Shown here: in pieces, positions 16,569 to 31,742 of the stretch
Layout of the letters: each line of letters opens with the position of its first letter
Numbering within the stretch: the stretch's first letter is position 1
Origin: Epilithonimonas arachidiradicis
GTDB lineage: Bacteria; Bacteroidota; Bacteroidia; Flavobacteriales; Weeksellaceae
Direction: 5' to 3'
NCBI RefSeq assembly: GCF_003610695.1
Contig: NZ_RAQH01000001.1
Span: 744,001-808,000, forward strand
Length of the DNA stretch: 64,000 bases
Notes under the pieces: model-generated
Told to the model about the DNA's origin: nothing
Databases searched by the model: none
The model's input: the letters and a program-made list of their open reading frames with translations, nothing else
Made by a program: the position numbers and the translations under genes

Positions 16569-18716
16569 TTATAAAGTGGTAGAAGTTTCTTCTTTCTTCT
16601 CTTGATTTAACATATTCGGCGCTTCTTTCGCCAACTTATTTTTTGTCGGGATTTTATAATTGAAAGAAAGTCCAAAGCTTCTCGTGTCGTTTTTGTTTCT
16701 GATGTAAACGTTCGGAAGTGCGTTCGTTGTTCTCAGATTCGTTTCGTTGGTATTGAAAACGTCATTAGCAAACAATGTTAGCGTCATTCTGTCTTTATTG
16801 AATTTTCTCGACAGTGATAGATTCAATGTATTATAGAATGATTTGTTTGGATAGAAAAAGAACTCATTTCCTTTTGTTAGGTAAGTGTAATTCGCATTGA
16901 ACTTTACTTTATAAGGCAAAATAAATTGTCCTGATATATTATAAGTCCAATAACCTTTTGGATTAATGATTTGATCTATTTGTTGTAATTGATATGAACC
17001 ATAGAGGAAGATGAAACTCACTTGGTCAGGATTCATATCCATTTTCATAATGTCTTTAAACGGTGTATTGAAAACTGCTAAAGGAATGGGAAATCCGATA
17101 TTGAAATTATGTGTTTTCAGGCGGTCAAGGTTGTCGCTTGTTTGTGAAATAGCATCGCCTTCTCTTTTTACAATTTGTACAACCTGATTCTTTGTATTGG
17201 TAAAATTATATCCGATGAAAGCATAATTCAAAGCGCTTAACTTAATCTCGAAATTATCGAAAATAGTTGGCTGAAGATTTGGGTTTCCAGAAAAATTGAT
17301 GTTTTCACTTTCGTATCGCGTATTATTTGGATTTAGGTTAGCAACATTAGGTAACGTTATTTTCTTATTGTAATTAACATTAAAGAAAGCAATTTTTGGA
17401 ATAATGTTGTATTGAATACTCGCATTAGGAAACACTTTGAATTTTTCAAATGATCTTAATTTATCATAAGTTTGGGTTTCAAAGTCTAAGCTTGTTCCAT
17501 TGATATTATAATATTCTCCACGAAGTCCTAAAACAAAATCCATTTTTCCTTTGGTAGCACTCGCTTCTGAATAAAAAGCAGTCGTCTTGCTTTTATAATC
17601 CAAATTTTCTATTCCAAAAAGATCTGCAGAAAATTCTAATTGATCATAATAAGCACCTAAACTTAATTTTCCTTCATCTAAAACCTTGATTGGCTGAGCG
17701 TAATCCACTCGGAAATTGTAAGCATCTTGACTTGAACCGTTTATCAAATAATTCTCTTGAAATGCGGGAATAGGCGAGAAGTCCATTTTTGTTTGACCAA
17801 AATCATTGCTGAAATTGGTGTATGAGCCTTTGAACTCCAATTTTTTATTCTTATCATCAAATTTTTTCTGATACGTTGCCGTTACCTCATTTCGCGTATT
17901 GCTTTGGTCAATGATGTCCTTACCAGTAGACTCAATTCCTTTTATCAGTTCAAATCTATCTACATAACGATCCGAAGAACCCAGCGAAAGATTGTAATTC
18001 AAAAGCAACCGGTCTTTTCCGATGTCAAATGTGAAGGCGCTTCGCAAATATTGATTTCTGTTGACGTTATCATTGTAAAGTCGAGAGATTTCGTCAATTG
18101 TGGATTTGGTTTCACTTTCGTTATAATTTTGTCCGACATTGAGCTGCCAGCCAAACCACTTGTTTTTGGAATTAAGCGTTAAACTATTATTGAATTTGCT
18201 TCTATAATGGTCATAATTGCTGAAACGATAACCGCCGGCATAAGTTGCAGACAAATAAGATTTAGCATTTTTGCTCGTGATGATATTGATGATTGCGCCA
18301 CCAGAAGTTGCAGGAAATTCCGCTCCTGGTTGGGTAATGATTTCAATTTTTTCGATGCTGTTTGCAGGAAGTCCTTCTAGATAAGCGGTTAGTTGTGTAC
18401 TGTAGATATTTAAAGGTCTTCCGTCCATATAAACATCCAGTGCTTTCCCTTGGTAAATCATCCCTGCCATTTCGGAAACCACCAACCCAGGGATTTTTTG
18501 CAATCCTTCTAATGTGTTACCGGAGTTAAGGTGTGGTTGCTCAGAGAAATCATAAATGGTTCTGTCTGCTTTTTGTTCAACTGCTTTTTTAGTTTTGGTA
18601 ATGGTGACCGCTTCTATTTCTTTTTCTTTGTCCGTTTCTTTTTTTTGTGTTTCCTGTGCGAAGTAGATTTGACTTAGAAATAATACAGAAATTGGAAGGA
18701 TTGATTTTAATTTCAT
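16569..18716 (-). CDS. TonB-dependent receptor, OMP_b-brl type, first of three
   Basis: This 715-residue outer-membrane protein has a signal peptide (residues 1-20), no carboxypeptidase-regulatory-like domain, a plug domain (EIITQPGAEFPATSGGAIINI) and a large beta-barrel ending in FGLSFNYKIPT plus a short extra tail. No SusD partner lies nearby, so it is not a SusC-type glycan receptor. The ligand is unknown. It is in the same orientation as two further receptors, 48 bases downstream of the next one, but is more divergent from them than they are from each other. Confidence 0.88.
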   Translation of the reverse strand: MKLKSILPISVLFLSQIYFAQETQKKETDKEKEIEAVTITKTKKAVEQKADRTIYDFSEQPHLNSGNTLEGLQKIPGLVVSEMAGMIYQGKALDVYMDGRPLNIYSTQLTAYLEGLPANSIEKIEIITQPGAEFPATSGGAIINIITSKNAKSYLSATYAGGYRFSNYDHYRSKFNNSLTLNSKNKWFGWQLNVGQNYNESETKSTIDEISRLYNDNVNRNQYLRSAFTFDIGKDRLLLNYNLSLGSSDRYVDRFELIKGIESTGKDIIDQSNTRNEVTATYQKKFDDKNKKLEFKGSYTNFSNDFGQTKMDFSPIPAFQENYLINGSSQDAYNFRVDYAQPIKVLDEGKLSLGAYYDQLEFSADLFGIENLDYKSKTTAFYSEASATKGKMDFVLGLRGEYYNINGTSLDFETQTYDKLRSFEKFKVFPNASIQYNIIPKIAFFNVNYNKKITLPNVANLNPNNTRYESENINFSGNPNLQPTIFDNFEIKLSALNYAFIGYNFTNTKNQVVQIVKREGDAISQTSDNLDRLKTHNFNIGFPIPLAVFNTPFKDIMKMDMNPDQVSFIFLYGSYQLQQIDQIINPKGYWTYNISGQFILPYKVKFNANYTYLTKGNEFFFYPNKSFYNTLNLSLSRKFNKDRMTLTLFANDVFNTNETNLRTTNALPNVYIRNKNDTRSFGLSFNYKIPTKNKLAKEAPNMLNQEKKEETSTTL

Positions 18717-18764
18717 AGGTTAGTTTATGTAGAATTAGACGTCTTATTTTGGATTTTGTTACAA

Positions 18765-20888
18765 TTAACGCGCTCTATTTTTCTCGTCAAAATCTACGTT
18801 TCGGTTGTTGGCTTTCACTTTTTGATTTCCAAAATTATAAGTCACACTAAAAGTCAATCTTCTAGCATCCCAGTAATTATTAAAGGACTGAACATTATCT
18901 TCAAAATAAACACTGCCCCGGAATCCTGAAGTTTTAAAGATGTCGTTGACAGAAATATTCATCTGGAGTGCTTTTTCCATTAGACTGAATTTCATTCCGG
19001 CATTGACACTCGAGTTTCCTCTGGTCGTCATATTTCTACTTCTGGATGGTAAAGAGTGCCAGTAATTAACAAAAAGAAAAAAAGTTTTAGCCTTGTTCAG
19101 CTGGAAAGTATTGTTGGCAGAATAGTAAAATGACTGTCCGTTTTTTGCCAGTGCCTCATATTTGGTAATCTGGGTATTACTGTAGCTTAATGAAGTGGAT
19201 AAATTGGTTTCCCAAATCTTGAAAAACGTATCGGTATAATTAAGATTAAGGCCATAAGTATCCTCATTATAATAATTATAAAAAGTACTTTCTATATCAA
19301 TGCCGTTGATGAAGGTAATCTGGCCAAAGTTATCTAGACTTCTTTCGTAATACAAACTCGCATTGAATTTACTTTTGAAAATGTAATTAAATTCAAAATT
19401 ATGATTGAAAGAAGGCTGCACACTAGGATTTCCTGCAAAATAACGATTGGGATTGGAGTACCAGCGGAACGGATTCAGAGCACGGAAATAGGGTCTGTTG
19501 ATTCTTCTGGAATAATTGATAATGAATTGATTATTATCATTGGCTTTGTAAGAAATGTAGGCGGTTGGAAATAGTTTTCCATAATTATTCTCTGAACTCA
19601 CTTGGGTGGAAGGAGAGAATCCTTTTGTTTCTGCATATTCATAACGCAACCCGAATTTTGCCGACCATTTCTCTCCAAAGTCTTTACTTGCACTGATGTA
19701 AGCCGCATAATTTTTCTCATCATAATTGAAAAGATTGCTCCTTTGCGGGTCGATAATGTAATCGTTATTGATCAAATTAAAGTAACCGATGTCAGAATTA
19801 TTAGAAAACTGACTGTATTTCAAACCCGTTTCCAATTGTATGTTTTTGAAATTAAGCGTCAAATCGCCCTGTCCGGAATAGATCTCATAATCTACAGAAG
19901 ATAGATTTCTTACAATTTGGTCAGATTGATCAGACAAATCGGTGGTCACAAAATTGACATTGGTTTCCGGAAGATTGCCATAATAATTCGCTCCGAAGCT
20001 TAATTTATGTTCGCCTAACTTTTGGTCATAATAAAGATTCAGCATTTGAGAAGTTGAGGTGGAGCGGTGTTTGGAATTTGTATCTGTATTAAATGTATTG
20101 ACATCGTTCGTGAAATAACGGGAAACAGAATTGATGTCCATATTAGAATGACCTTTGGCCAAATCATAGATTAATCCAACATTGGCTTTTTCACTCAAAG
20201 AATAATCCAAACTTACATTCATTCCCAATCCATCATTCATATCTCGTCTGTCATCTCTGCTGATGCTGGAATTTTCACCAATGATTTTGTAATTTTCAAC
20301 AGACCTTTTCTCACTATCATAACCTCGGAGTTTGATAGAAGATTTTAGTTTTTCGTTTTGATAATTGAGACCAAGCGCGCCGCCAAAACCTCCATAAGTG
20401 GATTGCTGGTAATAGGTATTGGTGTAACCGCTCCAGCCAAGATTCTGATTTTTTTTCAGAATGATATTGATGATTCCACTGTTTCCTTGGGCTTCATATT
20501 TTGCAGGTGGCGTTGTGATGACTTCTATTTTTGAAATGTTTTCCGAACGCAGATTTTTCAGATAGTTCATCAGTTCAGCACCGGAAAGATTCAACATTCG
20601 GTCATTCACCATAACGGAAACACCACTTTTTCCGGCAATCGCAAGCAAGCCTTGTTCTTCATCCACTTTCAGCAAAGGTGTGTTGGCAAGAACTTCTGTT
20701 CCAGAACTTCCTTCCGAAACCATCGAATTCTGAACATTATAAACCAAACGGTCCACTTTTCTTTCGATGATTTTTTTCTTTCCATCCACCGTTACGGTTT
20801 CTATGTTTTGAATTTTTACAGTATCCTGTGTTTGGGCAAAAGATAATGTACTAAATAGTGCTGAGGCAAAAAGTATGGATTTCTTCAT
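18765..20888 (-). CDS. TonB-dependent receptor, OMP_b-brl type, second of three
   Basis: This 707-residue outer-membrane receptor has a signal peptide (residues 1-18, ending SFAQT). The plug segment is ENISKIEVITTPPAKYEAQGNSG, given here as two adjoining pieces, ENISKIEVITTPP and AKYEAQGNSG. The beta-barrel ends in LTFSVTYNFGNQ followed by a basic and acidic tail that finishes FDEKNRAR. It is clearly paralogous to the third receptor: both share ISKIEVITTPP, SGIINIILKKN-like strands, FSLMEKxLQ and the terminal FDEKxRA. A gene duplication is likely. No TonB box is obvious. The ligand is unknown. Confidence 0.88.
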   Translation of the reverse strand: MKKSILFASALFSTLSFAQTQDTVKIQNIETVTVDGKKKIIERKVDRLVYNVQNSMVSEGSSGTEVLANTPLLKVDEEQGLLAIAGKSGVSVMVNDRMLNLSGAELMNYLKNLRSENISKIEVITTPPAKYEAQGNSGIINIILKKNQNLGWSGYTNTYYQQSTYGGFGGALGLNYQNEKLKSSIKLRGYDSEKRSVENYKIIGENSSISRDDRRDMNDGLGMNVSLDYSLSEKANVGLIYDLAKGHSNMDINSVSRYFTNDVNTFNTDTNSKHRSTSTSQMLNLYYDQKLGEHKLSFGANYYGNLPETNVNFVTTDLSDQSDQIVRNLSSVDYEIYSGQGDLTLNFKNIQLETGLKYSQFSNNSDIGYFNLINNDYIIDPQRSNLFNYDEKNYAAYISASKDFGEKWSAKFGLRYEYAETKGFSPSTQVSSENNYGKLFPTAYISYKANDNNQFIINYSRRINRPYFRALNPFRWYSNPNRYFAGNPSVQPSFNHNFEFNYIFKSKFNASLYYERSLDNFGQITFINGIDIESTFYNYYNEDTYGLNLNYTDTFFKIWETNLSTSLSYSNTQITKYEALAKNGQSFYYSANNTFQLNKAKTFFLFVNYWHSLPSRSRNMTTRGNSSVNAGMKFSLMEKALQMNISVNDIFKTSGFRGSVYFEDNVQSFNNYWDARRLTFSVTYNFGNQKVKANNRNVDFDEKNRAR

Positions 20889-20952
20889 ATCATTAATGAC
20901 AACTGATTTGCAGGATTTATTACATTATGTTAATTAGATTTATCAAATGAAG

Positions 20953-23055
20953 TTAGTTCGCTCTGTCTTTTTCTTCGAAATTAATCTGCTTTTTGTTGAT
21001 TTGTTTTTTCTTATTTCCGAAAGTATAATTCACGCTCAAACGAAAACTTCTGCCATCCCAGTAATTATTAAAATGCTGACTATTATCTCTGAAATACATA
21101 TCTCCACGGAATCGCTGAGCAAAAATATTCGTCACTGTTGCATTGATTTGAAGTTGCTTTTCCATTAGAGAAAACTTGATTCCGGAATTCAGATTGGAGA
21201 AATTATGGAAATAAGAATTCACATTTTTGTAAGGTAAACTTTGATCGTAGTTTAGGAATAGAGAAACCGTTTTTGATTTATTTAAAATGAATGTATTGTT
21301 GATAGAATAACTTACAGAAGTTCCTTTGGATGTTTCCGCACTGATATTGAAAACTTCTGAGTTTTGATAAGATGCGTTTGCAGAAATAGTGGCTTCCCAG
21401 AATTTGAAGAAAGTATCTGTGTAAGAAACATTAGCTCCATAAAAATTATTGTTATAGTAATTCTGATAATCTCCATTTTGAGAAATACCATCCAAGTAAC
21501 CGATTTGTCCAAAAGCATTAGTCAATCTAAGATAATAAACGCTTGTCGAAAACTTGTTATTATACGTATAACCTAATTCATAATTGTTGATGTAAGAAGG
21601 CGTCAATAAAGGGTTCCCTGATGAATAAGAATATGGATTTTCGTACCAGCGGAACGGATTCAAGTTGCTCATACTTGGTCGGTTAATTCTTCTTGAATAC
21701 GAAAGACTGAACACATTTTTATCCTCTTTGTAAGAGACAAAAGCCGAAGGAAACCATTGTCCGTAATCGAATTGATTCGCGGTGCTTTTTACAAACGTAT
21801 GTTCATATCGGATTCCCGCTTTGGTTTCCCAATGTTCCCCAAAATTCTTAGCAAAACTTGCGTAAACAGCGTAATTTTCTTCTTGATATCTAAAGGTGCT
21901 GCTTTTTTTGTCGTCGATGATATATTGACTGTCTTTTAAATCAAGGTATTTCAAGTCTGCAGAATTTCTGAATTGATTGAATTTAACACCTGTTTCAATC
22001 GTTCCAAATTTAAATGGCAATTCTAAGTCGCCTTGAACAGAGAAAATCTGAGGTGTGATTTTTGACAACGTTTTCACATCCTGAATCGTATTTTCTGGCA
22101 GTGTCAAAGTCGAGAAATTAACTTCGGTGTCGTTATTATTTTTATAAAAATTAGTAGCGAAACTCAGCTTTTTTCCAAACGAATCCAACTTCAAATCATA
22201 ATAAGCACTCAAAGTATGGGTCGGAGATTTTTCTCTATGAAATGTATTGGTCAAAAGATTAGTTTCTGTCAAATCAGAACTGATGTTTCTCGTTGTGTTA
22301 AAGATATCCATTCCTGATTTTTCGTGTCCAAAAATATACTCCATTCCAACTTCGGAGTTTTTATTGATTTTATAAGACGCGTTAAGACTTGGTGTCAAAT
22401 CCTGCCACATATCTTTTCTTGTAGACTCACTGTAATTTTGAGATTCTCCAAGTATAGTATATCTTTCATTAGAGCGTTTTGCCCCATCAATGTAGCTTGT
22501 TTTTAAACTTAAACTAAGCTTTTCGGTTTGGTAATTCAGTGTTCCGTTGGTGGTTCCGTTAAAATAAGTTCTTTGTGTGAAACCTGTGCTGATATTTCCG
22601 CTAAAACCTAGATTCGGATTTTTCTTTAGAATGATATTAATAAGTCCACTATTTCCCTGTGCTTCATATTTGGAAGGCGGCGTTGTAATCACTTCAATTT
22701 TCGAAATATTTTCAGAACGAATCGATTTCAGATAATTCAAAAGAGCAGTTCCGGAAAGATTCAGCATTTTTCCGTTTATCATCACATTTACATTACTTTT
22801 TCCTGTGATAGAAATGGTTCCGAGATTCTCATCCACTTTCAACATTGGAACATTGGCAAGCGTTTCGCCGGCATCCATTCCTTGTGAAGCGATTGATGCA
22901 TCCACATTGAAGATTAATCGGTCGGCTTTTCTTTCCAATAATTTTTTCTTTACGAGAATGTTGACCTGTTCGATTTCTTTAAGACTGTCTTTTTGTGTCT
23001 GCGCAAAAGTTGCAGTTGAAAGTAGAGTTGTGATGAATAAGTATTTCAGTTTCAT
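20953..23055 (-). CDS. TonB-dependent receptor, OMP_b-brl type, third of three
   Basis: This is a protein of about 700 residues with a signal peptide (MKLKYLFITTLLSTATFAQT), plug domain and beta-barrel, paralogous to the neighbour at 18765-20888. I choose the ATG at 23055 over the one at 23112: the signal peptide starts there, and a TACCTTTG promoter box on the same strand (23076-23083) lies between the two. It is the promoter-proximal member of the three-gene run (gap to the next is 64 bases). It diverges from a small lipoprotein gene followed by a LytS/LytTR pair, which may respond to the same signal. Confidence 0.88.
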   Translation of the reverse strand: MKLKYLFITTLLSTATFAQTQKDSLKEIEQVNILVKKKLLERKADRLIFNVDASIASQGMDAGETLANVPMLKVDENLGTISITGKSNVNVMINGKMLNLSGTALLNYLKSIRSENISKIEVITTPPSKYEAQGNSGLINIILKKNPNLGFSGNISTGFTQRTYFNGTTNGTLNYQTEKLSLSLKTSYIDGAKRSNERYTILGESQNYSESTRKDMWQDLTPSLNASYKINKNSEVGMEYIFGHEKSGMDIFNTTRNISSDLTETNLLTNTFHREKSPTHTLSAYYDLKLDSFGKKLSFATNFYKNNNDTEVNFSTLTLPENTIQDVKTLSKITPQIFSVQGDLELPFKFGTIETGVKFNQFRNSADLKYLDLKDSQYIIDDKKSSTFRYQEENYAVYASFAKNFGEHWETKAGIRYEHTFVKSTANQFDYGQWFPSAFVSYKEDKNVFSLSYSRRINRPSMSNLNPFRWYENPYSYSSGNPLLTPSYINNYELGYTYNNKFSTSVYYLRLTNAFGQIGYLDGISQNGDYQNYYNNNFYGANVSYTDTFFKFWEATISANASYQNSEVFNISAETSKGTSVSYSINNTFILNKSKTVSLFLNYDQSLPYKNVNSYFHNFSNLNSGIKFSLMEKQLQINATVTNIFAQRFRGDMYFRDNSQHFNNYWDGRSFRLSVNYTFGNKKKQINKKQINFEEKDRAN

Positions 23056-23075
23056 AATTTTTGATTTTGTTGAGA

Positions 23076-23083
23076 CAAAGGTA
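23076..23083 (-). promoter_or_regulatory. -7 box of the TonB-receptor run
   Basis: The minus strand reads TACCTTTG, matching TAnnTTTG, about 20 bases before the preferred ATG at 23055. No good TTG element is seen at the usual distance, so the promoter may need an activator. Confidence 0.45.
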
Positions 23084-23207
23084 TTTTCCAAGTTTTTTTT
23101 ATGAAATAGCATTTAGATTTGACCCGGCTTTAATCCGACCAAAATATTTTCATCGATAAAAAATCGGGGTTCATAGAAATTGCCCGTCGAAATCTTTTTG
23201 TTGTTAT

Positions 23208-23215
23208 TACTTTTG
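23208..23215 (+). promoter_or_regulatory. -7 box directly before the small lipoprotein gene
   Basis: TACTTTTG matches TAnnTTTG and ends 4 bases before the ATG at 23220. If used, the transcript would be nearly leaderless. A TTG lies at 23180-23182, a little farther than usual (25 bases). Confidence 0.4.
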
Positions 23216-23219
23216 AGCT

Positions 23220-23567
23220 ATGAAAAAATTAATACTCATTCTAATTTTAATATCTACGGTTTCCTGTATTGGTAACCATAGAGTAGATGTCTGGAAAACG
23301 CTGACGATAGCTTCCGGTGATAGCATCATTATTAATAAAGTAAAATCACCTGCAACTTTATCCATTAAAAATCTATCAGATAAAGAAGTAGAAATGGTTT
23401 CTGAACTGAAAATGCAGAAAAGTATATCGGCTAATTCTGAGTTTACTTACAGATTGCCTAAAAAAAGTAACTTGATTTTAAAAAATAAAAATGCGGAAAT
23501 GGTTTCTATACATTTGCATTATTCATCTAATAAACCGATTCTAATTAATCACAAAGAACTACGATGA
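23220..23567 (+). CDS. Small lipoprotein upstream of LytS-type kinase
   Basis: This 115-residue protein has a lipoprotein signal (MKKLILILILISTVSCIG, Cys16). The short mature beta-rich domain (DSIIINKVKSPATLSIKNLSD, with a later LPKKSNLILKNKNAEMVSIHLHY) has no recognised family. The stop overlaps the start of the histidine kinase gene by 4 bases (ATGA), so the two are translationally coupled. The lipoprotein could be a periplasmic input or accessory to the kinase. This is inferred from coupling only. Confidence 0.75.
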   Translation: MKKLILILILISTVSCIGNHRVDVWKTLTIASGDSIIINKVKSPATLSIKNLSDKEVEMVSELKMQKSISANSEFTYRLPKKSNLILKNKNAEMVSIHLHYSSNKPILINHKELR

Positions 23568-24571
23568 AAAAACAACAGCTCTTATTTCTCCATATATTTT
23601 ATTGGTGTATTTACATTCTCGGAACTTTTATATTTCCTTATTTAGTATTCGAAACAGAAGCCGATTATTTTAAAATAACCTTTGCTATTACAAGCTTTAT
23701 ATGTTTTTACGTCAACTATTTTTTTGTAATTCCGAAGTTCTTCAATATTCAAAATCTCTCCAAAACACTGCTTGCTTTTCTTTTAAGTGTTTTTTGTTTT
23801 GTATTGATTCGCTATTGTGTGGAAGAGATTTTCTCGCCTTATTTTTTTGGGATCAGGAATTACAATGAGAAAACATCTTTGAGTTTTTATTTTTATGATA
23901 ATATCTATTACAGCAGTACAACGATTTTTATAAGCACGGTTTTTTGTTTGTTCAAGTTGATGTCCGATGCCGAAATTGAGAAAAGACAATTAATAGAAGA
24001 AAAAAAGAACTCCGAGCTTCAGGCTTTGAAGACGCAAATCAATCCTCATTTTATCTTCAATACTTTGAATAATATTTATTCTTTGGTTTATCAGCAATCA
24101 GAAAAAGCACTACCAGCTATTGAAGAATTGAGTCAGTTGTTAAGATACAGCACAAAAGATTTGGAAAAAGATTTTATTTCTTTGGAAAAAGAAATTGGCT
24201 ATCTTGAAAGTCTGATTGAGCTTGAAAAATTAAGAATCAAAAATCCGGAATTATTAATCATTGAGAAGAGAATCAATTTTCCGAATCTTAATATTTCACC
24301 GATGCTTCTCGTTCCTTTTGTAGAGAATGCCTTCAAACACGGTGATTTTTCAGGAAAAGGATTTACTTTGAAAATTTCTGATGAGAATCAAAAACTTCAT
24401 TTTCATCTTCATAATTTTAAAAAACAACGTTCCAAAGATTCACTTTCGGGAATTGGGATTGGCAATGTGAAAAAACGACTGGAAATCCTTTATCCAAAAA
24501 AACACGAACTCAATATTATCGAAACCGAAATAGAATATTCTGTAGATTTGAAAATCGATTTGAATATATAA
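23564..24571 (+). CDS. LytS/YehU-type sensor histidine kinase
   Basis: This 335-residue kinase has about four N-terminal membrane helices (to residue ~130), a short coiled segment, then the His_kinase domain with QINPHFIFNTLN (phospho-acceptor His162) and an HATPase_c-like domain (VPFVENAFKHG, GIGIGNVKKRL). It lacks a separate sensor domain, so signal input probably comes through the membrane helices or the coupled lipoprotein. The cognate regulator is the LytTR gene at 24711, separated by an inverted-repeat element. Kinases of this class are frequent beside TonB receptors in flavobacteria. Confidence 0.92.
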   Translation: MKKQQLLFLHIFYWCIYILGTFIFPYLVFETEADYFKITFAITSFICFYVNYFFVIPKFFNIQNLSKTLLAFLLSVFCFVLIRYCVEEIFSPYFFGIRNYNEKTSLSFYFYDNIYYSSTTIFISTVFCLFKLMSDAEIEKRQLIEEKKNSELQALKTQINPHFIFNTLNNIYSLVYQQSEKALPAIEELSQLLRYSTKDLEKDFISLEKEIGYLESLIELEKLRIKNPELLIIEKRINFPNLNISPMLLVPFVENAFKHGDFSGKGFTLKISDENQKLHFHLHNFKKQRSKDSLSGIGIGNVKKRLEILYPKKHELNIIETEIEYSVDLKIDLNI

Positions 24572-24674
24572 ACCACAAAAGTCACAAAAGAGTTGAAATT
24601 GAAAGAAACAATGGCTATTTTGTTCTTTTATATTGCTTTATTTTTCAATCATTTCTTTTGTGACTTTCGTGGTT
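24571..24674. repeat. Inverted repeat, ACCACAAAAGTCACAAAAG family, copy 2
   Basis: Left arm 24571-24591 is identical to that of copy 1 at 13920-13940; right arm 24654-24674 differs from perfect complementarity at one base (TTTCGT for TTTTGT). The loop is 62 bases, against 13 in copy 1, and unrelated in sequence. The element begins on the last base of the kinase stop codon and splits the kinase from its response regulator. Confidence 0.85.
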
Positions 24675-24710
24675 GAAAAAATTAAAAAGGAGTAAATATA
24701 ATATTAGTTA

Positions 24711-25397
24711 ATGAAAAGAATTAAATGTATCGTTGTGGATGACGAGCCTCTCGCAGTTTCTTTGCTAGGAAGTTACGTTGAAAAAATTCCGTTTTTTGAA
24801 TTGGTTTTTTCAACAGAAAACCCAATTGAAGCAATGGAATTTATCCAAAATAATGAAGCCGATTTGATTTTTTTGGATATTCAAATGCCAGAACTGACAG
24901 GGATTAATTTTATGAAAATCGTCGGCAATAAGCTGAAATATATTCTTACAACAGCTTACGCAGAATATGCTATGGAAGGCTACGAACATAATGTTGTCGA
25001 TTATCTTCTGAAACCAATTTCGTTTGCTCGTTTTGAAAAAAGTGCATTAAAAGCGCAAGAACGTTTTGCTGTCAGTCAAGATTCGCTGGGTTCTTATTTC
25101 TTTGTGAAATCTTCGGGACAACAGCATAAAGTCAATTTCAATGAGATTCTTTTTATAGAAAGCATCAAAGATTATGTCAATATCAAAACTGAAAATCAGG
25201 AATACATCGTTCTTGAGACTTTGAAATCTCTGGAAAATCAACTGCCTGAGAATTTCGCAAGAGTTCATAAATCTTTTATCATCAACATTGATAAAATCGA
25301 GAAAATGGATGTAAAAAATGTCTCTATAAATTCCGAAATCGAAATCCCAATCGGAGAAACTTACAAATCCGAATTCTTTTTGAAAATTAAAAAATAA
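24711..25397 (+). CDS. LytTR-type response regulator
   Basis: This 228-residue regulator has an N-terminal receiver domain (acidic pair DDE at 10-12, phospho-acceptor Asp56 in FLDIQMPEL, Lys in LLKPISFARF) and a C-terminal LytTR DNA-binding domain (FIESIKDYVNIKT, FARVHKSFIINIDKIEKM). It is the partner of the LytS-type kinase upstream. Likely targets include the adjacent TonB-receptor promoter, but no LytTR direct repeats were identified with confidence. It has no TAnnTTTG box right before it, so it may be transcribed from the kinase promoter through the repeat. Confidence 0.93.
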   Translation: MKRIKCIVVDDEPLAVSLLGSYVEKIPFFELVFSTENPIEAMEFIQNNEADLIFLDIQMPELTGINFMKIVGNKLKYILTTAYAEYAMEGYEHNVVDYLLKPISFARFEKSALKAQERFAVSQDSLGSYFFVKSSGQQHKVNFNEILFIESIKDYVNIKTENQEYIVLETLKSLENQLPENFARVHKSFIINIDKIEKMDVKNVSINSEIEIPIGETYKSEFFLKIKK

Positions 25398-25437
25398 TAG
25401 TTTATATCCATAATATTCTAAATTTCTTCTCTTCTAA

Positions 25438-25469
25438 TTGTAAACAAAACAGAAATATTGTTAATTTTG
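25438..25469 (+). promoter_or_regulatory. Promoter of the acyl-carrier-protein operon
   Basis: TTG at 25438-25440, a 21-base spacer and TAATTTTG at 25462-25469 match the Bacteroidota consensus. The predicted start of transcription is about 14 bases before the ATG of the ACP gene, so the operon begins there. Confidence 0.6.
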
Positions 25470-25485
25470 CAAGAAACACATAACG

Positions 25486-25716
25486 ATGCAAGAAAAATTA
25501 TTGACAATTATCAACTCCATCAAAAAGAATAAATTCGAAGAACCCGTTCTGGAAATTACTCCGGAACAGACCCTTAGAGAAAATCTTAATTTCGATTCTT
25601 TTGATCTTGCTGAACTTACTGTAAAAATTGAAGAAGAATTCGGGGTTGACATCTTTGAAGATGGTTTGGTCAATACAATCAACGAAATCTATACAAAACT
25701 TCAATGTTTTTCTTAA
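25486..25716 (+). CDS. Dedicated acyl carrier protein
   Basis: This 76-residue acidic protein has the phosphopantetheine attachment motif FDSFDLAEL, with Ser38 as the expected prosthetic-group site, and the typical four-helix ACP length. It is not the fatty-acid-synthesis AcpP, because it lies in an operon with a ligase, a reductase and an acyltransferase and far from fab genes. It presumably carries an acyl intermediate loaded by the next enzyme. Its end overlaps the ligase gene by 13 bases. Confidence 0.9.
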   Translation: MQEKLLTIINSIKKNKFEEPVLEITPEQTLRENLNFDSFDLAELTVKIEEEFGVDIFEDGLVNTINEIYTKLQCFS

Positions 25717-26918
25717 TAGATCAGAATTTTTCTTTGTCTTACGAGGAAATTCTGACAGAAGTCAACACTTCTGATTCATACACAGATTGCTACATTTACC
25801 CGGATTTGAAGTCTTTTTTTCTCAATTGGATTTTTGCATTGGTCAATGAGAAAAATATTGCGTTGATGGATTCTGATATTTCTGAAAAAGAGATCCAGTC
25901 AAACGATTTAAAGATTAATCAATTAATCAAAATCGAGAACCCAAAAAAGTTTTCTTCAGTAGAAGAATTGATTAATTCGATTAGATATTCTCAGTCAGAG
26001 ATCACATTGTTTACTTCGGGAACGACTGGTTTTACTAGAAAATTTACGCATCCTTTGAAAAATCTGATTAGGAAAATTAATGTTTCTGATGAGAGAAAAA
26101 ATGATGTTTGGGGCTTTGCTTTCAATCCCACTCACGTTGCTGGTGTACAAGTTTTTTTTCAGGCCATATTGAATCAGAATCTTTTGGTTAATGTTTTTCT
26201 TGCACCAAAAGATTTTATAATTGATTCGATCAAAAAATACAGCATCACGAATCTTTCATCCACACCAACTTTTTATCGCTTGCTTTTGCCGTTGAAAGAG
26301 TCTTTTGATTCAGTTAAAAAAATTACTGTTGGTGGCGAAAAATCTGATGCTTATTTGATTTCTGAAATAGAAAAAGCTTTTCCTAACGCAAGAATCAACA
26401 ATGTTTATGGTTCCACAGAAACAGGGCCATTATTTTCTTCTCAGAATGATGAGTTTTTTGTTCAGGAAAAACACATTGGATTGATAAAAGTAGTTGATGA
26501 CGAATTATATATCCATAAAGATTTATTCGGCAAAACAGCGCAATTGAATTTGATTGATGATTTTTATGCCACTGGCGATTTGATCGAGTGGATTGATGAT
26601 GAACAAAGAAGATTCCGATTCACATCCAGGAAAAATGAATTAATCAATGTCGGAGGTTACAAAGTGAATCCTTACGAAGTTGAAGACGAATTAACCCAAC
26701 ATTCCAATATCCGAAATGTAAGAGTTTATGGAAAGGCCAATGCTGTTTTAGGAAATATCATTTGTTGCGAAATCGAACTGCACCCAAATACCGAATTGAA
26801 GGAAGAAGAAGTTAGATTTTTCTTAAATGGGAAAATTCAGAATTTCAAAATCCCTAGAAAAATAACCTTTGTTGACAAGATAGAATTGACCAGAACCGGA
26901 AAAAAGAAAATAGTATGA
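25704..26918 (+). CDS. AMP-forming acyl ligase (ANL superfamily), ACP-loading candidate
   Basis: This 404-residue adenylate-forming enzyme is shorter than typical acyl-CoA synthetases (about 500) but keeps the core motifs. These are the P-loop LFTSGTTGFTRKF (A3), NVYGSTETGPLF (A5), YATGDLIEW (A7), RKNELINVGGYKVNPYEVED (A8) and the C-terminal catalytic-lysine region TRTGKKKIV (A10). The N-terminal subdomain is reduced. The 13-base overlap with the ACP gene suggests that it activates a carboxylic acid and loads it onto that ACP. The acid is not predictable from sequence. It overlaps the reductase gene by 4 bases. Confidence 0.88.
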   Translation: MFFLIDQNFSLSYEEILTEVNTSDSYTDCYIYPDLKSFFLNWIFALVNEKNIALMDSDISEKEIQSNDLKINQLIKIENPKKFSSVEELINSIRYSQSEITLFTSGTTGFTRKFTHPLKNLIRKINVSDERKNDVWGFAFNPTHVAGVQVFFQAILNQNLLVNVFLAPKDFIIDSIKKYSITNLSSTPTFYRLLLPLKESFDSVKKITVGGEKSDAYLISEIEKAFPNARINNVYGSTETGPLFSSQNDEFFVQEKHIGLIKVVDDELYIHKDLFGKTAQLNLIDDFYATGDLIEWIDDEQRRFRFTSRKNELINVGGYKVNPYEVEDELTQHSNIRNVRVYGKANAVLGNIICCEIELHPNTELKEEEVRFFLNGKIQNFKIPRKITFVDKIELTRTGKKKIV

Positions 26919-27637
26919 ACGTATTAATAACAGGAGTTTCCAGAGGTGTTGGTTTAGAAATCAGTAAGTTGTTTCTGGAAAATGGACACACGGTTTATGG
27001 ACTCAGCAGAACCGAATCGGAGGAATTAAAAGACCTTGAAAAACAGTATCCGGAAAATTTTTTCTTCAAAACATTCGATTTGTCTAATCCGGAAAATATC
27101 CAACAAGAAGTTTTCAAAGATTTTGTCAAAAATCAAATTCCAATTCACGTATTAATTAACAATGCAGCGATGGCTTATGATGATATTGTTACGAATCTTA
27201 ATTACGAAGATCTGAAAACAATGTTCGATGTCAACTTGTATTCGCCAATGTTTTTGACAAAATATGCCATCAGAAATATGATTTATAACCGGGTTTCCGG
27301 AAGCATCATTCATATTTCTTCGATCAGCGCACACACAGGTTACAAAGGTTTGTCGATGTATGCGGCTTCTAAGGGTGCTTTGCAATCTTTTTCCAAAAAT
27401 ATTTCCAGAGAATGGGGCGAACGAGGGATCCGTTCCAATATCGTTGTTCCTGGTTATATGGAAACCGCAATGAATGCAAAACTGACTCAGGATCACAAAA
27501 ACAGAATCTTCAAAAGAACCGCATTGAAAAAAGAAACCGATATGCAGTCTGTGGCAGAAACCGTTTTGTTTCTAGCAAGTGAAAAAGCAAAATCGATTAC
27601 TGGACAAGAAATTTTTGTAGATTCCGGAACATTATAA
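26915..27637 (+). CDS. Short-chain dehydrogenase/reductase, FabG-like
   Basis: This 240-residue SDR has the nucleotide-binding motif TGVSRGVG (residues 6-13), NNAA, and the catalytic Ser-Tyr-Lys set (SSISAHTGYKGLSMYAASKG; Tyr in YAASK). It resembles 3-oxoacyl-ACP reductase. Within this operon it most plausibly reduces a 3-oxoacyl group on the dedicated ACP to a 3-hydroxyacyl group, but a sugar or other ketone substrate cannot be excluded. It is coupled to the ligase by ATGA and sits 13 bases before the acyltransferase. Confidence 0.9.
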   Translation: MNVLITGVSRGVGLEISKLFLENGHTVYGLSRTESEELKDLEKQYPENFFFKTFDLSNPENIQQEVFKDFVKNQIPIHVLINNAAMAYDDIVTNLNYEDLKTMFDVNLYSPMFLTKYAIRNMIYNRVSGSIIHISSISAHTGYKGLSMYAASKGALQSFSKNISREWGERGIRSNIVVPGYMETAMNAKLTQDHKNRIFKRTALKKETDMQSVAETVLFLASEKAKSITGQEIFVDSGTL

Positions 27638-27650
27638 AAAACACAAAACC

Positions 27651-28226
27651 ATGATCAATTTAATATATAAAGCATTGAATATCATTCCGAAAACGATTGC
27701 GAAAATCGAGAAGCTATATTCCTATAGTATTCTCAATTCGCATTCCGGAGTCACACTTCATTCTGATCTTAAAATAGGAAAGGCGACTACTTTTGAGTTG
27801 GATGACAATGCCAAATTCGAGATCGGCAAAAATGTGATTTGGAGAGATCATAATGCCATTAGGATAAGAAACGGAGGAACATTGATTTTCGGAAATAATG
27901 TAGATCTCAGTCATTATATTTCCATCAATTGTCTAGATAAAATAGAATTGGGCGATGATACCTGCATTGCTGAAGGCTGCAAATTCTATGATCACGACCA
28001 CGCTTTCGATACAAAACCAGAATACATTTGGCACAAAAACAAATTCAATACTGCACCAATCATCATCGGTAAAAATGTGAAAATCTACAGTAATGTTACT
28101 GTTCTCAAAGGCGTAACAATTGGCGATAACTGTATCATTGGTGCGAATTGCGTTATTTCCAGAAACGTTCCAGCTAATTCCATCATCTTCGGGAAGCACG
28201 AATTGATGAGGTTGCCTTTGATGTAA
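27651..28226 (+). CDS. Hexapeptide-repeat (LbH) acyltransferase
   Basis: This 191-residue protein is of the left-handed beta-helix family (WbbJ/CatB/Maa type). Imperfect hexapeptide repeats run from about residue 45 (FEIGKNVIWRDHNAIRIRNG) to the end. The catalytic-type loop CKFYDHDHAFD includes the conserved His, and the terminal coil IGKNVKIYSNVTVLKGV, IGDNCIIGANCVI is typical. It would transfer the acyl group from ACP or CoA to a sugar or other hydroxyl or amine. It is the last gene of the four-gene cassette. Confidence 0.9.
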   Translation: MINLIYKALNIIPKTIAKIEKLYSYSILNSHSGVTLHSDLKIGKATTFELDDNAKFEIGKNVIWRDHNAIRIRNGGTLIFGNNVDLSHYISINCLDKIELGDDTCIAEGCKFYDHDHAFDTKPEYIWHKNKFNTAPIIIGKNVKIYSNVTVLKGVTIGDNCIIGANCVISRNVPANSIIFGKHELMRLPLM

Positions 28227-28235
28227 TTTTATTTG

Positions 28236-28320
28236 GGCAGCTTAATCCGCCTTCCGTTCCCGCTTTTTTCTTTTTTCGCAAAAAAAGAAAAAGAGCTCCA
28301 CTCAAGTCGGGCTGCGAGAG
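28236..28320. repeat. GCTTAATCC...CGGG intergenic repeat, copy 1
   Basis: The block begins GGGCAGCTTAATCCGCCTTC and ends near AAGTCGGGCTGCG. Its middle is a pyrimidine/purine hairpin (T-rich arm, CGC loop, A-rich arm). The start and end match the block at 57701-57790 (GGAGCTTAATCCCGCTTTCC ... CAATCGGGGCTATGG), marking both as copies of a Chryseobacterium-type dispersed element. The rest of the gap to 28397 is A-rich with no gene. Confidence 0.6.
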
Positions 28321-28397
28321 ATTCAACATTTTAAAAAATACTTTAGAAAAAAATAAAAATTTTTAAGGTAAAAAAAAATCAGCGTCGTCATATTCAT

Positions 28398-28973
28398 ATG
28401 GAGTCGCTATCTTTACAGCAAATGGCCGAAAAAAAATCTGCATCGATTACGGAAGTCGTAAAAAATTACGGTTCCCAGCTCTTGCGCTTTATCAACTCTA
28501 AAGTGGCAAAGACAGAAGATGCGGAAGATATTCTGCAGGAAGTTTGGTTTCAGACCAGCCGATTGACTAACTTGAACGAGTTAGAAAATGTTGGTGCTTG
28601 GTTGTATTCGGTTACCAGAAACAAAATCATCGATAGTTACAGAAAAAAGAAAAGCGAATCTCTGGAAGATTTTGTCTATCAGGATGAAGACGGCGAACTG
28701 AATGTGAAAGATATTCTTTTAGCAGATGATAGTAATAATCCGGAACTCGGTGTTTTCAAAGAGATGTTCTGGAATGAGTTGATGAAAGCTTTGGACGAAC
28801 TACCGGAAAAACAAAAACGGGTTTATATCCAAAATGAGCTGGAAGATAAAACGCTACAGGAGATTGCTGACGAAGAAGGCGAAAACATAAAAACAATCAT
28901 TAGTAGAAAATCATATGCAGTAAAACATCTGCGCAAAAGACTGCAAAGTCTTTATGATGATTTGAACGATTAA
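28398..28973 (+). CDS. ECF-type RNA polymerase sigma factor
   Basis: This 191-residue sigma-70 family protein has region 2 at residues about 22-90 (DAEDILQEVWFQT, NVGAWLYSVTRNKIIDSYRKKK) and region 4 near the C-terminus (LPEKQKRVYIQNELEDKTLQEIADEEG, SRKSYAVKHLRKRLQ). Between them is an acidic linker (VYQDEDGELNVKDILL). No classical anti-sigma factor follows; the next gene encodes a small membrane protein with charged repeats that may play that part. An AACGC-ACTA-GCGTT mini-hairpin lies in the gap after it (28991-29004). Confidence 0.9.
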   Translation: MESLSLQQMAEKKSASITEVVKNYGSQLLRFINSKVAKTEDAEDILQEVWFQTSRLTNLNELENVGAWLYSVTRNKIIDSYRKKKSESLEDFVYQDEDGELNVKDILLADDSNNPELGVFKEMFWNELMKALDELPEKQKRVYIQNELEDKTLQEIADEEGENIKTIISRKSYAVKHLRKRLQSLYDDLND

Positions 28974-29037
28974 TATTTAGAATAAAATGAAACGCACTAG
29001 CGTTCCATCTGACAATTAAAATAATATGTAGGTACAG

Positions 29038-29421
29038 ATGAAAAGAAATAAAAAGAAATTTTGGTTAGCTATTCCTTGCATTATTGCAGCGATAGGTTTA
29101 TTTGTTTGGTTTTTCCAATGGCTTTGGAATATCCTTTTGCCTGACATTTTAGGTGTGAAAGCAATTAATTATTGGCAATCTCTGGGGATTTTGGTGTTAT
29201 CAAAGATTTTATTCGGAGGATTTAATGGAAAGAAAAAATTTGGGAGACGACATCGTTTTGACGGACAAGATGCTATGAAAGAAAGCTGGAAGCAGAAATT
29301 CGAAACCCAATTCTGTGGCAGCGAAGAAGAACGTGAAAAGTTCAAAGAGATGTGGAAACAACGATTCGAATCCAAATTCTGCAGACCAGAACAACCTCGA
29401 ACAGAAGAAAATAAAGCGTAA
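29038..29421 (+). CDS. Small membrane protein with duplicated Phe-Cys motif, partner of sigma factor
   Basis: This 127-residue protein has two membrane segments (residues about 8-30, and 40-58 around ILVLSKILFGGF) followed by a charged cytoplasmic or periplasmic tail. The tail holds a duplication: SWKQKFETQFC and MWKQRFESKFC, 22 residues apart, both ending in Phe-Cys. Proteins with this arrangement recur after ECF sigma genes in Bacteroidota. A role in sensing or restraining the sigma factor is inferred from adjacency. It ends in a clear terminator. Confidence 0.78.
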   Translation: MKRNKKKFWLAIPCIIAAIGLFVWFFQWLWNILLPDILGVKAINYWQSLGILVLSKILFGGFNGKKKFGRRHRFDGQDAMKESWKQKFETQFCGSEEEREKFKEMWKQRFESKFCRPEQPRTEENKA

Positions 29422-29424
29422 AAT

Positions 29425-29453
29425 AAAAGTCTCACAATTTGTGAGACTTTTTA
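29425..29453. terminator. Bidirectional intrinsic terminator
   Basis: Arms AAAAGTCTCACA (29425-29436) and TGTGAGACTTTT (29440-29451) enclose a 3-base loop with T-rich and A-rich flanks. It separates the small membrane protein from the convergent aconitase gene. Confidence 0.92.
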
Positions 29454-29471
29454 TATCTGTAAAGTAAAGTT

Positions 29472-31742
29472 TTAACTTTCTTTTTCCATTGCTTTGATAA
29501 GGTTAAGAGCAGAACCAGCTTTGAACCAGGCAATTTGTCCAGCATTATAAGTATGGTTCGTTTTCACAATATCCTTAGTTCCATCAGCGTGAACAAATTC
29601 CAAAGTCAGTTGTTTACCTGGCGCAAATTGATCTAAATCTAAGAAATTAATTGTATCATCTTCTTGGATTTTATCATAATCTTCTTTGTCTGCAAAGGTT
29701 AATCCAAGCATTCCTTGTTTTTTAAGATTGGTTTCGTGGATTCTGGCAAAAGATTTAACCAAAACCGCTCTTACACCAAGATGTCTTGGTTCCATTGCAG
29801 CGTGTTCTCTGGAAGAACCTTCACCATAATTCTCGTCACCGACAACAATCGTTGGGATTTCTGCCGCTTTATATTGTCTTGCAGAGTCAGGAACTGGTTT
29901 GTACTTGCCATCTAATTCGTTCTTAACATTGTTGGTTTCCATATTGAAGGCGTTCACGGCTCCAATTAACATATTATTGGAAATGTTGTCAAGATGTCCT
30001 CTGTATTTCAACCAAGGTCCAGCCATAGAGATGTGGTCGGTAGTACACTTTCCATAAGCTTTGATTAATAATCTTGCACCAGTAATATTCAATCCGTCCC
30101 AAGCTGGGAAAGCCTCCAGAATTTGCAATCTGTCAGATGTCGGCGATACAATTACCTCTACATTAGAGCCATCTTCTGCAGGAGCAATGTAACCAGGATC
30201 TTCTACATCAAATCCTAATCTTGGAAGGTCGTCTCCGCTTGGCTGATCTAGCATCACTTCGACACCGTCTTTATTTTTTAATTTATCTGTCAGAGGATTG
30301 AATCTCAAATCCCCCGCAATCGCCATTGCTGTCACTAATTCCGGAGAACCTACGAAAGCGTAAGTATTAGGATTGCCGTCCGCTCTTTTAGAGAAGTTTC
30401 GGTTGAAGGAATGAACAATCGTGTTTTTTTCTTGTTTCTCAGCACCTTCACGTGCCCATTGTCCGATACAAGGTCCACAAGCATTAGCGAAAACTTTACC
30501 ACCAATCTCATCAAAAGTTTTCAGGAAACCGTCTCTTTCTACCGTAAATCTAACTTGTTCTGAACCTGGCGTGATGGTGTATTCAGCTTTAACTTCAAGA
30601 TTTTTTTCTTTAGCTTGTTTCGCCACAGAAGCTGCTCTTGCGATATCTTCATAGGATGAGTTAGTACAAGAACCAATCAATCCGACTTCGATTTTAGTTG
30701 GCCAGCCGTTTTTCTCAGCAATTTCTTTCATTTGCGAGATTGGTGTTGCCAAATCCGGAGTGAAAGGTCCGTTGAGATAAGGCTCTAAAGTGTCAAGATT
30801 GATCTCAATCACTTCATCATAATATTTTTCCGGATTGGCGTGAACTTCTGGGTCTGCTTTCAGCACATGAGCAATTGAATCAGCCGCATCAGCCAAATCT
30901 TCTCTGTCAGTTGAACGGAGATATTTGCTCATATTTTGGTCATACTCGAAAATAGAAGTTGTTGCTCCGATTTCCGCACCCATATTACAAATCGTACCTT
31001 TCCCTGTACAAGAAAGCGAATTTGCACCTTCTCCAAAATACTCTACAATAGCACCAGTTCCACCTTTTACGGTAAGAATTCCTGCCACTTTTAAAATAAT
31101 ATCTTTTGGAGCAGTCCAACCATTTAATTTTCCCGTTAATTTTACACCAATCATTTTAGGGAATTTAAGTTCCCAAGCCATTCCAGCCATTACGTCCACG
31201 GCATCAGCGCCACCAACGCCGATAGCCACCATTCCAAGCCCACCAGCGTTTACTGTGTGAGAATCGGTTCCAATCATCATTCCGCCAGGAAAAGCATAAT
31301 TTTCTAAAACAACTTGATGGATAATACCAGCTCCAGCTTTCCAGAAACCAATTCCGTATTTATTAGAAACCGACTGTAGGAATTGATAAACCTCGTTATT
31401 TTTATTTTCAGCTTCGATTAAATCTTTGGCTGCACCCACTCTTGCCTGAATCAAATGATCAGCGTGAACTGTTGACGGAACCGCAACTTTTTTCTTTCCA
31501 GCCTGCATAAATTGTAAAAGAGCCATTTGGGCTGTTGCATCCTGCATTGCCACTCTATCCGGAGCGAAATCTACATAGGATTCTCCTCTTTTAAATGCTT
31601 CTTTTGCCTGAGATGGAAAAAGGTGAGCGCAAAGAATTTTTTCTGAATAAGTAAGAGGTCTTCCCATAAAAGCTCTTGCTTCGTTTACTCTGCTTTCGAA
31701 ATCAGAATAAACTTTTTTGATCATATCCAAGTCAAAAGTCAT
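29472..31742 (-). CDS. Aconitate hydratase, mitochondrial/AcnA-like type
   Basis: This is an aconitase of about 756 residues. It interconverts citrate and isocitrate using a 4Fe-4S cluster; cluster cysteines are visible in [10 protein letters not shown] and [11 protein letters not shown]. Other family blocks are [26 protein letters not shown] and the C-terminal swivel motif [15 protein letters not shown]. Its length and sequence resemble the mitochondrial type rather than cytosolic IRP1-like AcnA. I place the start at the ATG at 31742 ([10 protein letters not shown]); the ORF extends 23 codons upstream without homology-like sequence. Together with AcnB it gives this strain two aconitases in tandem. 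Confidence 0.95.

Follow-up and report, generated by a model that had tools for sequence, protein, structure and literature searches.

An orphan ACP–ligase–SDR–acyltransferase cassette of Epilithonimonas as a candidate glycan-acylation system

A 64,000-nucleotide stretch of Epilithonimonas arachidiradicis DNA (the window, on NZ_RAQH01000001.1; coordinates below are window positions unless a locus is named) carries, on its plus strand, a compact cassette of four genes. They encode a dedicated acyl carrier protein (ACP; 76 amino acids, 25486..25716), a compact AMP-forming ligase (404 amino acids, 25704..26918), a classical short-chain dehydrogenase/reductase (SDR; 240 amino acids, 26915..27637) and a WbbJ-type hexapeptide acyltransferase (191 amino acids, 27651..28226). 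On sequence comparison we favour, with moderate confidence, reading the four genes as a glycan-acylation cassette in which the ligase would load a small acid, the SDR would reduce it and the hexapeptide acyltransferase would transfer it to a surface sugar. The gene set, order and overlaps given in the original prediction were exact to the coordinate: ACP and ligase genes overlap by 13 bases, ligase and SDR genes by ATGA, and 13 bases separate the SDR gene from the acyltransferase gene. Pfam agreed for all four proteins (PP-binding, 1.6e-07; AMP-binding, 2.7e-17, and AMP-binding_C, 3.6e-12; adh_short_C2, 2.1e-50; Hexapep, 1.8e-15).

The ACP–ligase–SDR core and its genomic company

Scanning named genomes with an alignment of the ligase yielded 96 relatives, the best 80 of which were kept; 11 loci with at least 79% identity were assigned to the genus, and the other 69, none above 54%, were treated as lying outside it. 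Since these loci (L numbers below) were picked by ligase motifs, the counts describe relatives of this ligase rather than all ligases. The outside loci are mostly from Bacteroidota, and also from Verrucomicrobiota, Calditrichota, Cloacimonadota and Firmicutes. An ACP gene stands directly upstream of the ligase gene in 78 of the 80 loci, with gaps of -62 to 12 bases; in the two others (L128 and L146) the ligase lies less than 250 bases from a contig end. An SDR gene follows in 80/80, the distance being at most 190 bases in 79 loci and 554 bases in L128, and the ligase/SDR overlap is exactly 4 bases in 52/80. Judged by gene order, ACP, ligase and SDR are one block, and this three-gene core is not new to biology. 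The order of the first three genes is kept far outside the genus. Hexapeptide genes adjoining the module there resemble the cassette acyltransferase with E values no better than 5e-09, and the strongest match in any outside module locus (1e-15) lies 2.5 kb from the module, so we know the complete four-gene order only from Epilithonimonas.

Neighbouring genes were labelled with 16 small profiles grown from locus seeds, and Pfam confirmed the class of all 16 seeds. Some profiles grew past their seed family (PglD, 49 frames; GT2, 53; PSynt2, 53), so their labels are read as hexapeptide, glycosyltransferase and sugar-epimerase-like, respectively. At least two of 12 glycan classes occurred within about 10 kb in 52 of the 69 outside loci, and the same profiles found two classes in 0/23 control stretches (11 cassette-bearing and 9 cassette-less genus loci and three window tiles), which all come from this genus rather than from random loci of the same phyla. 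Within the controls only the acyltransferase gene of the cassette itself gave a hit (PglD label), and neither in the window nor in the genus loci does the cassette lie among glycan genes.

Acyltransferase labels were counted in the 69 outside loci between 2.6 kb upstream and 3.2 kb downstream of the ligase start. PglD/hexapeptide labels occurred in 27 loci, PseH-type GNAT in 5, acyltransferase-3 in 3 (all among the 27) and MBOAT in 2, with none in 35. The PseH-type gene adjoins the module in 5/69, and the three tested (L100, L144 and L147) pass the curated PseH cut-off; PseG, PseI and PseC in L147 and PseG in L100 also score above their cut-offs. 3-Hydroxybutyryl amides are known on the sugar of the pathway joined in these PseH loci, as in Shigella boydii type 7 (PMC3628348). 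By this company the core is probably a portable source of acyl-ACP, delivering a 3-hydroxyacyl group such as 3-hydroxybutyryl to glycan acyltransferases of different kinds.

Several loci carry further genes. In L085:2756-9093 and L094:7975-12613 the module is accompanied by genes for a ketosynthase III, a further SDR and an MBOAT protein, and L085 also has DltD-like reading frames (labelled by eye; the one scanned gave no Pfam match); a Dlt-like O-acylation system using a polyketide-type acyl group is possible there. In an Algoriphagus metagenome-assembled genome, a short holo-ACP-synthase-like protein follows the module (L142:3875-4243; assigned by eye, with no NCBIfam match at 1e-20).

The four proteins and the proposed reactions

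Catalytic residues are well kept in the three core proteins. The phosphopantetheine-accepting Ser38 of the ACP, within FDSFDLAEL, is present in 79/79 aligned ACPs. In the ligase, Glu239, Asp292 and Gly399 are invariant and Lys400 is nearly so among 46 aligned sequences. Its AlphaFold2 model (pLDDT 88.5) has an ANL fold with a top Z of 30.8; because ANL enzymes of many kinds fall within a few Z units, the substrate cannot be read from the fold. The SDR residues N107, S136, Y149 and K153 are kept in 81/81, with an unusual HTGYKGL stretch preceding the catalytic Tyr. Against the FabG model TIGR01830 the SDR scores 182.8 bits, below the 297.75 cut-off, which makes it FabG-like, a 3-oxoacyl-ACP reductase candidate under the equivalog threshold. 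Searches with the ligase gave only weak matches within its own genome (best 2.1e-4) and no close relative on plasmids, where 739 records matched at 1e-5, all below 60% identity and, for the 20 listed, at 24-30%.

The fourth protein, the proposed sugar acyltransferase, has WbbJ as its best NCBIfam match (82.7 bits, E 2.3e-23), below the 243-bit cut-off and hence related rather than equivalog, and its His115 and His117 are invariant in 17 aligned sequences. Five of six relatives at 34-50% identity lie in glycan clusters, as judged by eye. Three of these five, all from one other genus of the family (L185, L186 and L188), have a ketosynthase III nearby, which in L185 and L188 is followed by an ACP and a reductase. 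A fold model of the acyltransferase (mean pLDDT 76.8) was not used. Left-handed hexapeptide proteins matched it with Z 13.0 (OatWY) and 12.3 (AntD) at a root-mean-square deviation of about 12, and right-handed helices aligned at about 2.4-4; the model was set aside because its predicted handedness is probably wrong.

The proposed route starts with the ligase, which would adenylate a small carboxylic acid and load it onto the dedicated ACP. The SDR would then reduce the 3-oxoacyl group on the ACP, in the likeliest case turning acetoacetyl into 3-hydroxybutyryl, and the hexapeptide acyltransferase would attach the resulting 3-hydroxyacyl group to a sugar of a surface glycan, at either a hydroxyl or an amino position. 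A 3-hydroxyacyl group would fit best because the product must be carried by the ACP, made by a ligase, reduced by an SDR and used by sugar acyltransferases. The ligase would here replace a first ketosynthase. In the eight outside loci with a ketosynthase III gene directly ahead of the ACP gene, a single round of extension would lead to a 3,5-dihydroxyhexanoyl-type group like that of Flavobacterium psychrophilum (PMC6519341). The sequence of activation, loading, reduction and transfer in the original prediction is thus favoured by the comparative evidence, the order of the first three genes being kept far beyond the genus, while we infer what each enzyme does, in which direction the SDR works, and which acyl group and acceptor are involved.

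The cassette within Epilithonimonas

The ligase was found in 14/23 genomes of the genus and the SDR in the same 14. The other three genes accompany the ligase in 14/14, one set being interrupted by a contig end (in genome G153 the end falls inside the fourth gene). In 13/13 genomes with enough sequence the four genes lie in one order between a LytTR regulator gene and a gene for an extracytoplasmic function (ECF) sigma factor; in L029 an antisense frame was first mapped at the ACP position, and the ACP was then located there. In the wider family, ligase matches at 1e-20 occurred in 22/246 genomes, only 16 of these at 45% identity or more. The node joining the genus ligase clade to its nearest neighbours, which bears on whether the clade is nested inside glycan-located relatives, had a support of 0.255.

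Comparison of the four genes with those of six genus members gave ratios of nonsynonymous to synonymous substitution (dN/dS) of 0.015-0.08 in 20 of 24 comparisons, the other 4 being saturated, and the acyltransferase values were as low as those of the ACP, ligase and SDR. By these ratios the cassette is under strong purifying selection. It is conserved where present and missing from part of the genus, which suggests a function that the bacteria can do without, as is often the case for surface decorations.

Four of the nine cassette-less genomes (L064-L067) still have the regulator and the sigma factor, and no gene of the cassette lies in between; in the other five the kinase and regulator are also missing at this place. 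On the minus strand of L066 (7822-8013), a stretch resembling the promoter region and the initial codons of an ACP gene runs into a stop, before the sigma factor gene; by its sequence and place this is a cassette remnant, the trace of a loss. A ten-marker tree of 22 genomes implied at least six changes of presence; this tree has many gaps, several nodes under 75% support and no outside root. One gain with repeated loss is the simplest reading, because all copies share one site, and the cassette was probably lost several times.

In the window, a histidine kinase gene and the LytTR regulator gene lie upstream of the cassette and the ECF-type sigma factor gene downstream. In G119 the kinase and regulator match only as short fragments and look broken (L036:8256-8870), yet the cassette is intact, suggesting that the regulators may not be needed for it. 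Further off, three adjoining long genes resembling outer-membrane receptors (by eye) occupy 16569-23112 on the minus strand, and their copy number varies among the genus loci.

The consensus promoter claimed for the cassette found no support as an Escherichia coli-type site: a sigma-70 scan of 23000-30000 gave 26 sites against 25.7 expected, no excess over shuffles. Bacteroidota promoters follow the motif TTG ... TAnnTTTG. A pattern match of this type (TTG, 21 bases, TAATTTTG) lies at 25438..25469 on the plus strand, with 16 bases between it and the ACP start codon. Of 13 cassette-bearing genus loci compared, 10 have such a match in the corresponding position; it was not found there in L029, L033 and L036. 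We regard 25438-25469 as a putative, promoter-like site.

Alternative readings and known systems

Several observations weigh against a role in glycan acylation. The cassette's surroundings in the window are regulators together with receptor-like and aconitase-like genes. Fewer than two glycan classes were found in 17/69 outside loci, some with long flanks (L126, L135, L139 and L145), although the 17 also include short contigs and loci that look glycan-like by eye (L120); the genus-only origin of the controls counts here too. The contig that holds the closest relative of the acyltransferase (50%, L187) is 6.3 kb long and shows no recognisable glycan genes. Acetyl-CoA is the usual donor for WbbJ-type enzymes, so the fourth gene product may take its acyl group from elsewhere than the ACP. 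Among the 17 loci, L135:9725-11918 of Flavobacterium hydatis consists of ACP, ligase and SDR only. No gene of the 16 labelled classes flanks it, which makes it a second orphan copy, and it stands apart from the Epilithonimonas clade in the ligase tree.

The acceptor may come from a glycan cluster on the same contig, about 290 kb from the cassette, which is a candidate source. It encodes RmlA and RmlB above cut-offs, glycosyltransferases recognised by eye, a DegT-type aminotransferase, a NeuD-like transferase and an exporter-like ATPase (all three below curated cut-offs) and a paralogue of the cassette acyltransferase (39%). Against this candidate, nothing ties the cassette to the cluster. The cluster also contains a ketosynthase III (L199:16657-17673) with neither an ACP nor a reductase of that kind next to it, so that the predicted lack of a ketosynthase is true of the cassette but not of its genome. 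This bears on a reading in which a starter acid loaded by the ligase is extended in trans, by housekeeping FabH/FabF or by the glycan-cluster ketosynthase III, and then reduced by the SDR to a longer mono- or di-hydroxyacyl product. A single kind of ketosynthase III (58-66% to the query) is found in 21/23 genus genomes, and in 8/69 outside loci a ketosynthase III gene directly precedes the ACP gene. The genus ketosynthase III nevertheless occurs both with the cassette (13/14 genomes) and without it (8/9), most relatives of the module have no ketosynthase nearby (FabH label in 11/69), and we consider extension in trans unlikely, if far from negligible. The same counts led us to reject the idea of a ketosynthase set replacing the cassette where it is absent; a complete ketosynthase–ACP–reductase set was found in 2/21 regions, both in cassette-bearing genomes (one of the 21 regions, that of G135, is only 3 kb long).

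The WbbJ-type protein might instead be an ordinary acetyl-CoA-dependent O-acetyltransferase, with the module's acyl-ACP serving a different enzyme. Its family is common, matching in 132/246 Weeksellaceae-family genomes at 1e-25 or better against 22/246 for the ligase, and the weak matches of hexapeptide genes beside the module outside the genus point the same way. We hold this to be rather improbable, as the gene is the fourth member in 14/14 module-bearing genus genomes with equally low dN/dS. The small carrier protein and compact ligase also recall a Dlt-like system, in which an amino acid is carried for export-side modification; DltA is among the fold matches of the ligase (Z 27.9) and MBOAT genes occur in 3/69 outside loci. 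The cassette, however, contains neither an MBOAT (DltB) nor a DltD partner, the SDR has no place in Dlt chemistry, and the ligase core motif reads NPTHVAG whereas amino-acid-activating domains carry an Asp-containing one, making a Dlt-like role very unlikely. We give still less credence to a lipid or secondary-metabolite set, such as a sphingolipid-type ACP–ligase–reductase group or a flexirubin or aryl polyene fragment. ACP and acyl-CoA synthetase pairs do accompany sphingolipid synthesis in Rhodobacteria, according to the part of that study available (PMC9386255), but a Pfam scan of the nine proteins from 23220 to 29421 revealed no serine palmitoyltransferase, ketosynthase or dehydratase, and relatives of the module sit with sugar genes.

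Glycan acylation from ACP-borne acyl groups is already published for other bacteria, and the comparisons that follow draw on the available parts of the cited papers. The Pseudomonas syringae viosamine island (vioS-vioB-vioR-acp) has an ACP, a 3-oxoacyl-ACP reductase and a sugar acyltransferase, as proposed here; its viosamine carries a 3-hydroxybutyryl-type amide, and a mutant of the required reductase gene vioR lacks modified viosamine (PMC3927599). A ketosynthase III, VioS, stands in place of the ligase there, and the sugar genes are clustered alongside. In Flavobacterium psychrophilum, wfpC-wfpG encode an O-polysaccharide-specific ACP, a reductase and a PglD-like acyltransferase predicted to attach 3,5-dihydroxyhexanoyl, for which a ketosynthase-based logic was proposed; the genes lie inside the O-polysaccharide locus and include two ketosynthases, with no ligase described in the part of the source available (PMC6519341). 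The cassette thus shares the dedicated ACP and FabG-like reductase with the vio/wfp kind but has no ketosynthase gene of its own.

Among the named systems we found, the closest that pairs a ligase with a carrier, set beside the cassette by description, is rfbK/rfbL (wbeL) of Vibrio cholerae O1. RfbK is the carrier protein, and the ligase acts on a short hydroxy acid; the perosamine of the O-antigen bears tetronate, a dihydroxybutanoate, as its N-acyl group, and the genes lie inside the O-antigen region (PMC3441752, PMC12208996). WbeL has 471 amino acids against 404 here, and there are five tetronate genes (VC0248-VC0252) against four (same sources). By annotation, orf1-orf3 of the group II polar-flagellin glycosylation islands of Aeromonas belong to the same classes, listed as ACP, 3-oxoacyl-ACP reductase and AMP-dependent synthetase, and sit between pseudaminic acid genes; the available part of that paper names no WbbJ-type partner and describes no test of the three genes (PMC7874193).

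What is new in Epilithonimonas is the orphan, putatively separately promoted location and the WbbJ-type partner; none of the open-licence PMC papers that our searches listed describes the cassette in this genus. The expectation of an undescribed set outside polysaccharide clusters therefore holds for site and pairing but not for the core, which lies mostly in glycan clusters and whose classes were already annotated in Aeromonas. We advance one broader proposal tentatively. The module might be an unnamed portable cartridge, found in five phyla, that makes acetoacetyl-ACP directly from the free acid without a ketosynthase. Reduction would then give 3-hydroxybutyryl-ACP as donor for acyltransferases of unrelated folds (PglD/NeuD hexapeptide, PseH-type GNAT, MBOAT and acyltransferase-3); in Epilithonimonas the module might have turned into a surface-switch locus that has its own promoter and a WbbJ-type transferase and has been lost repeatedly.

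Bacterial surface sugars owe part of their serotype, phage reception and immune recognition to unusual N- and O-acyl groups, whose donors are often of unknown origin. If a conserved three-gene module supplies the donor, such acyl groups could be predicted from genome sequence in several phyla, with the stand-alone cassette of Epilithonimonas as a small, removable test case.

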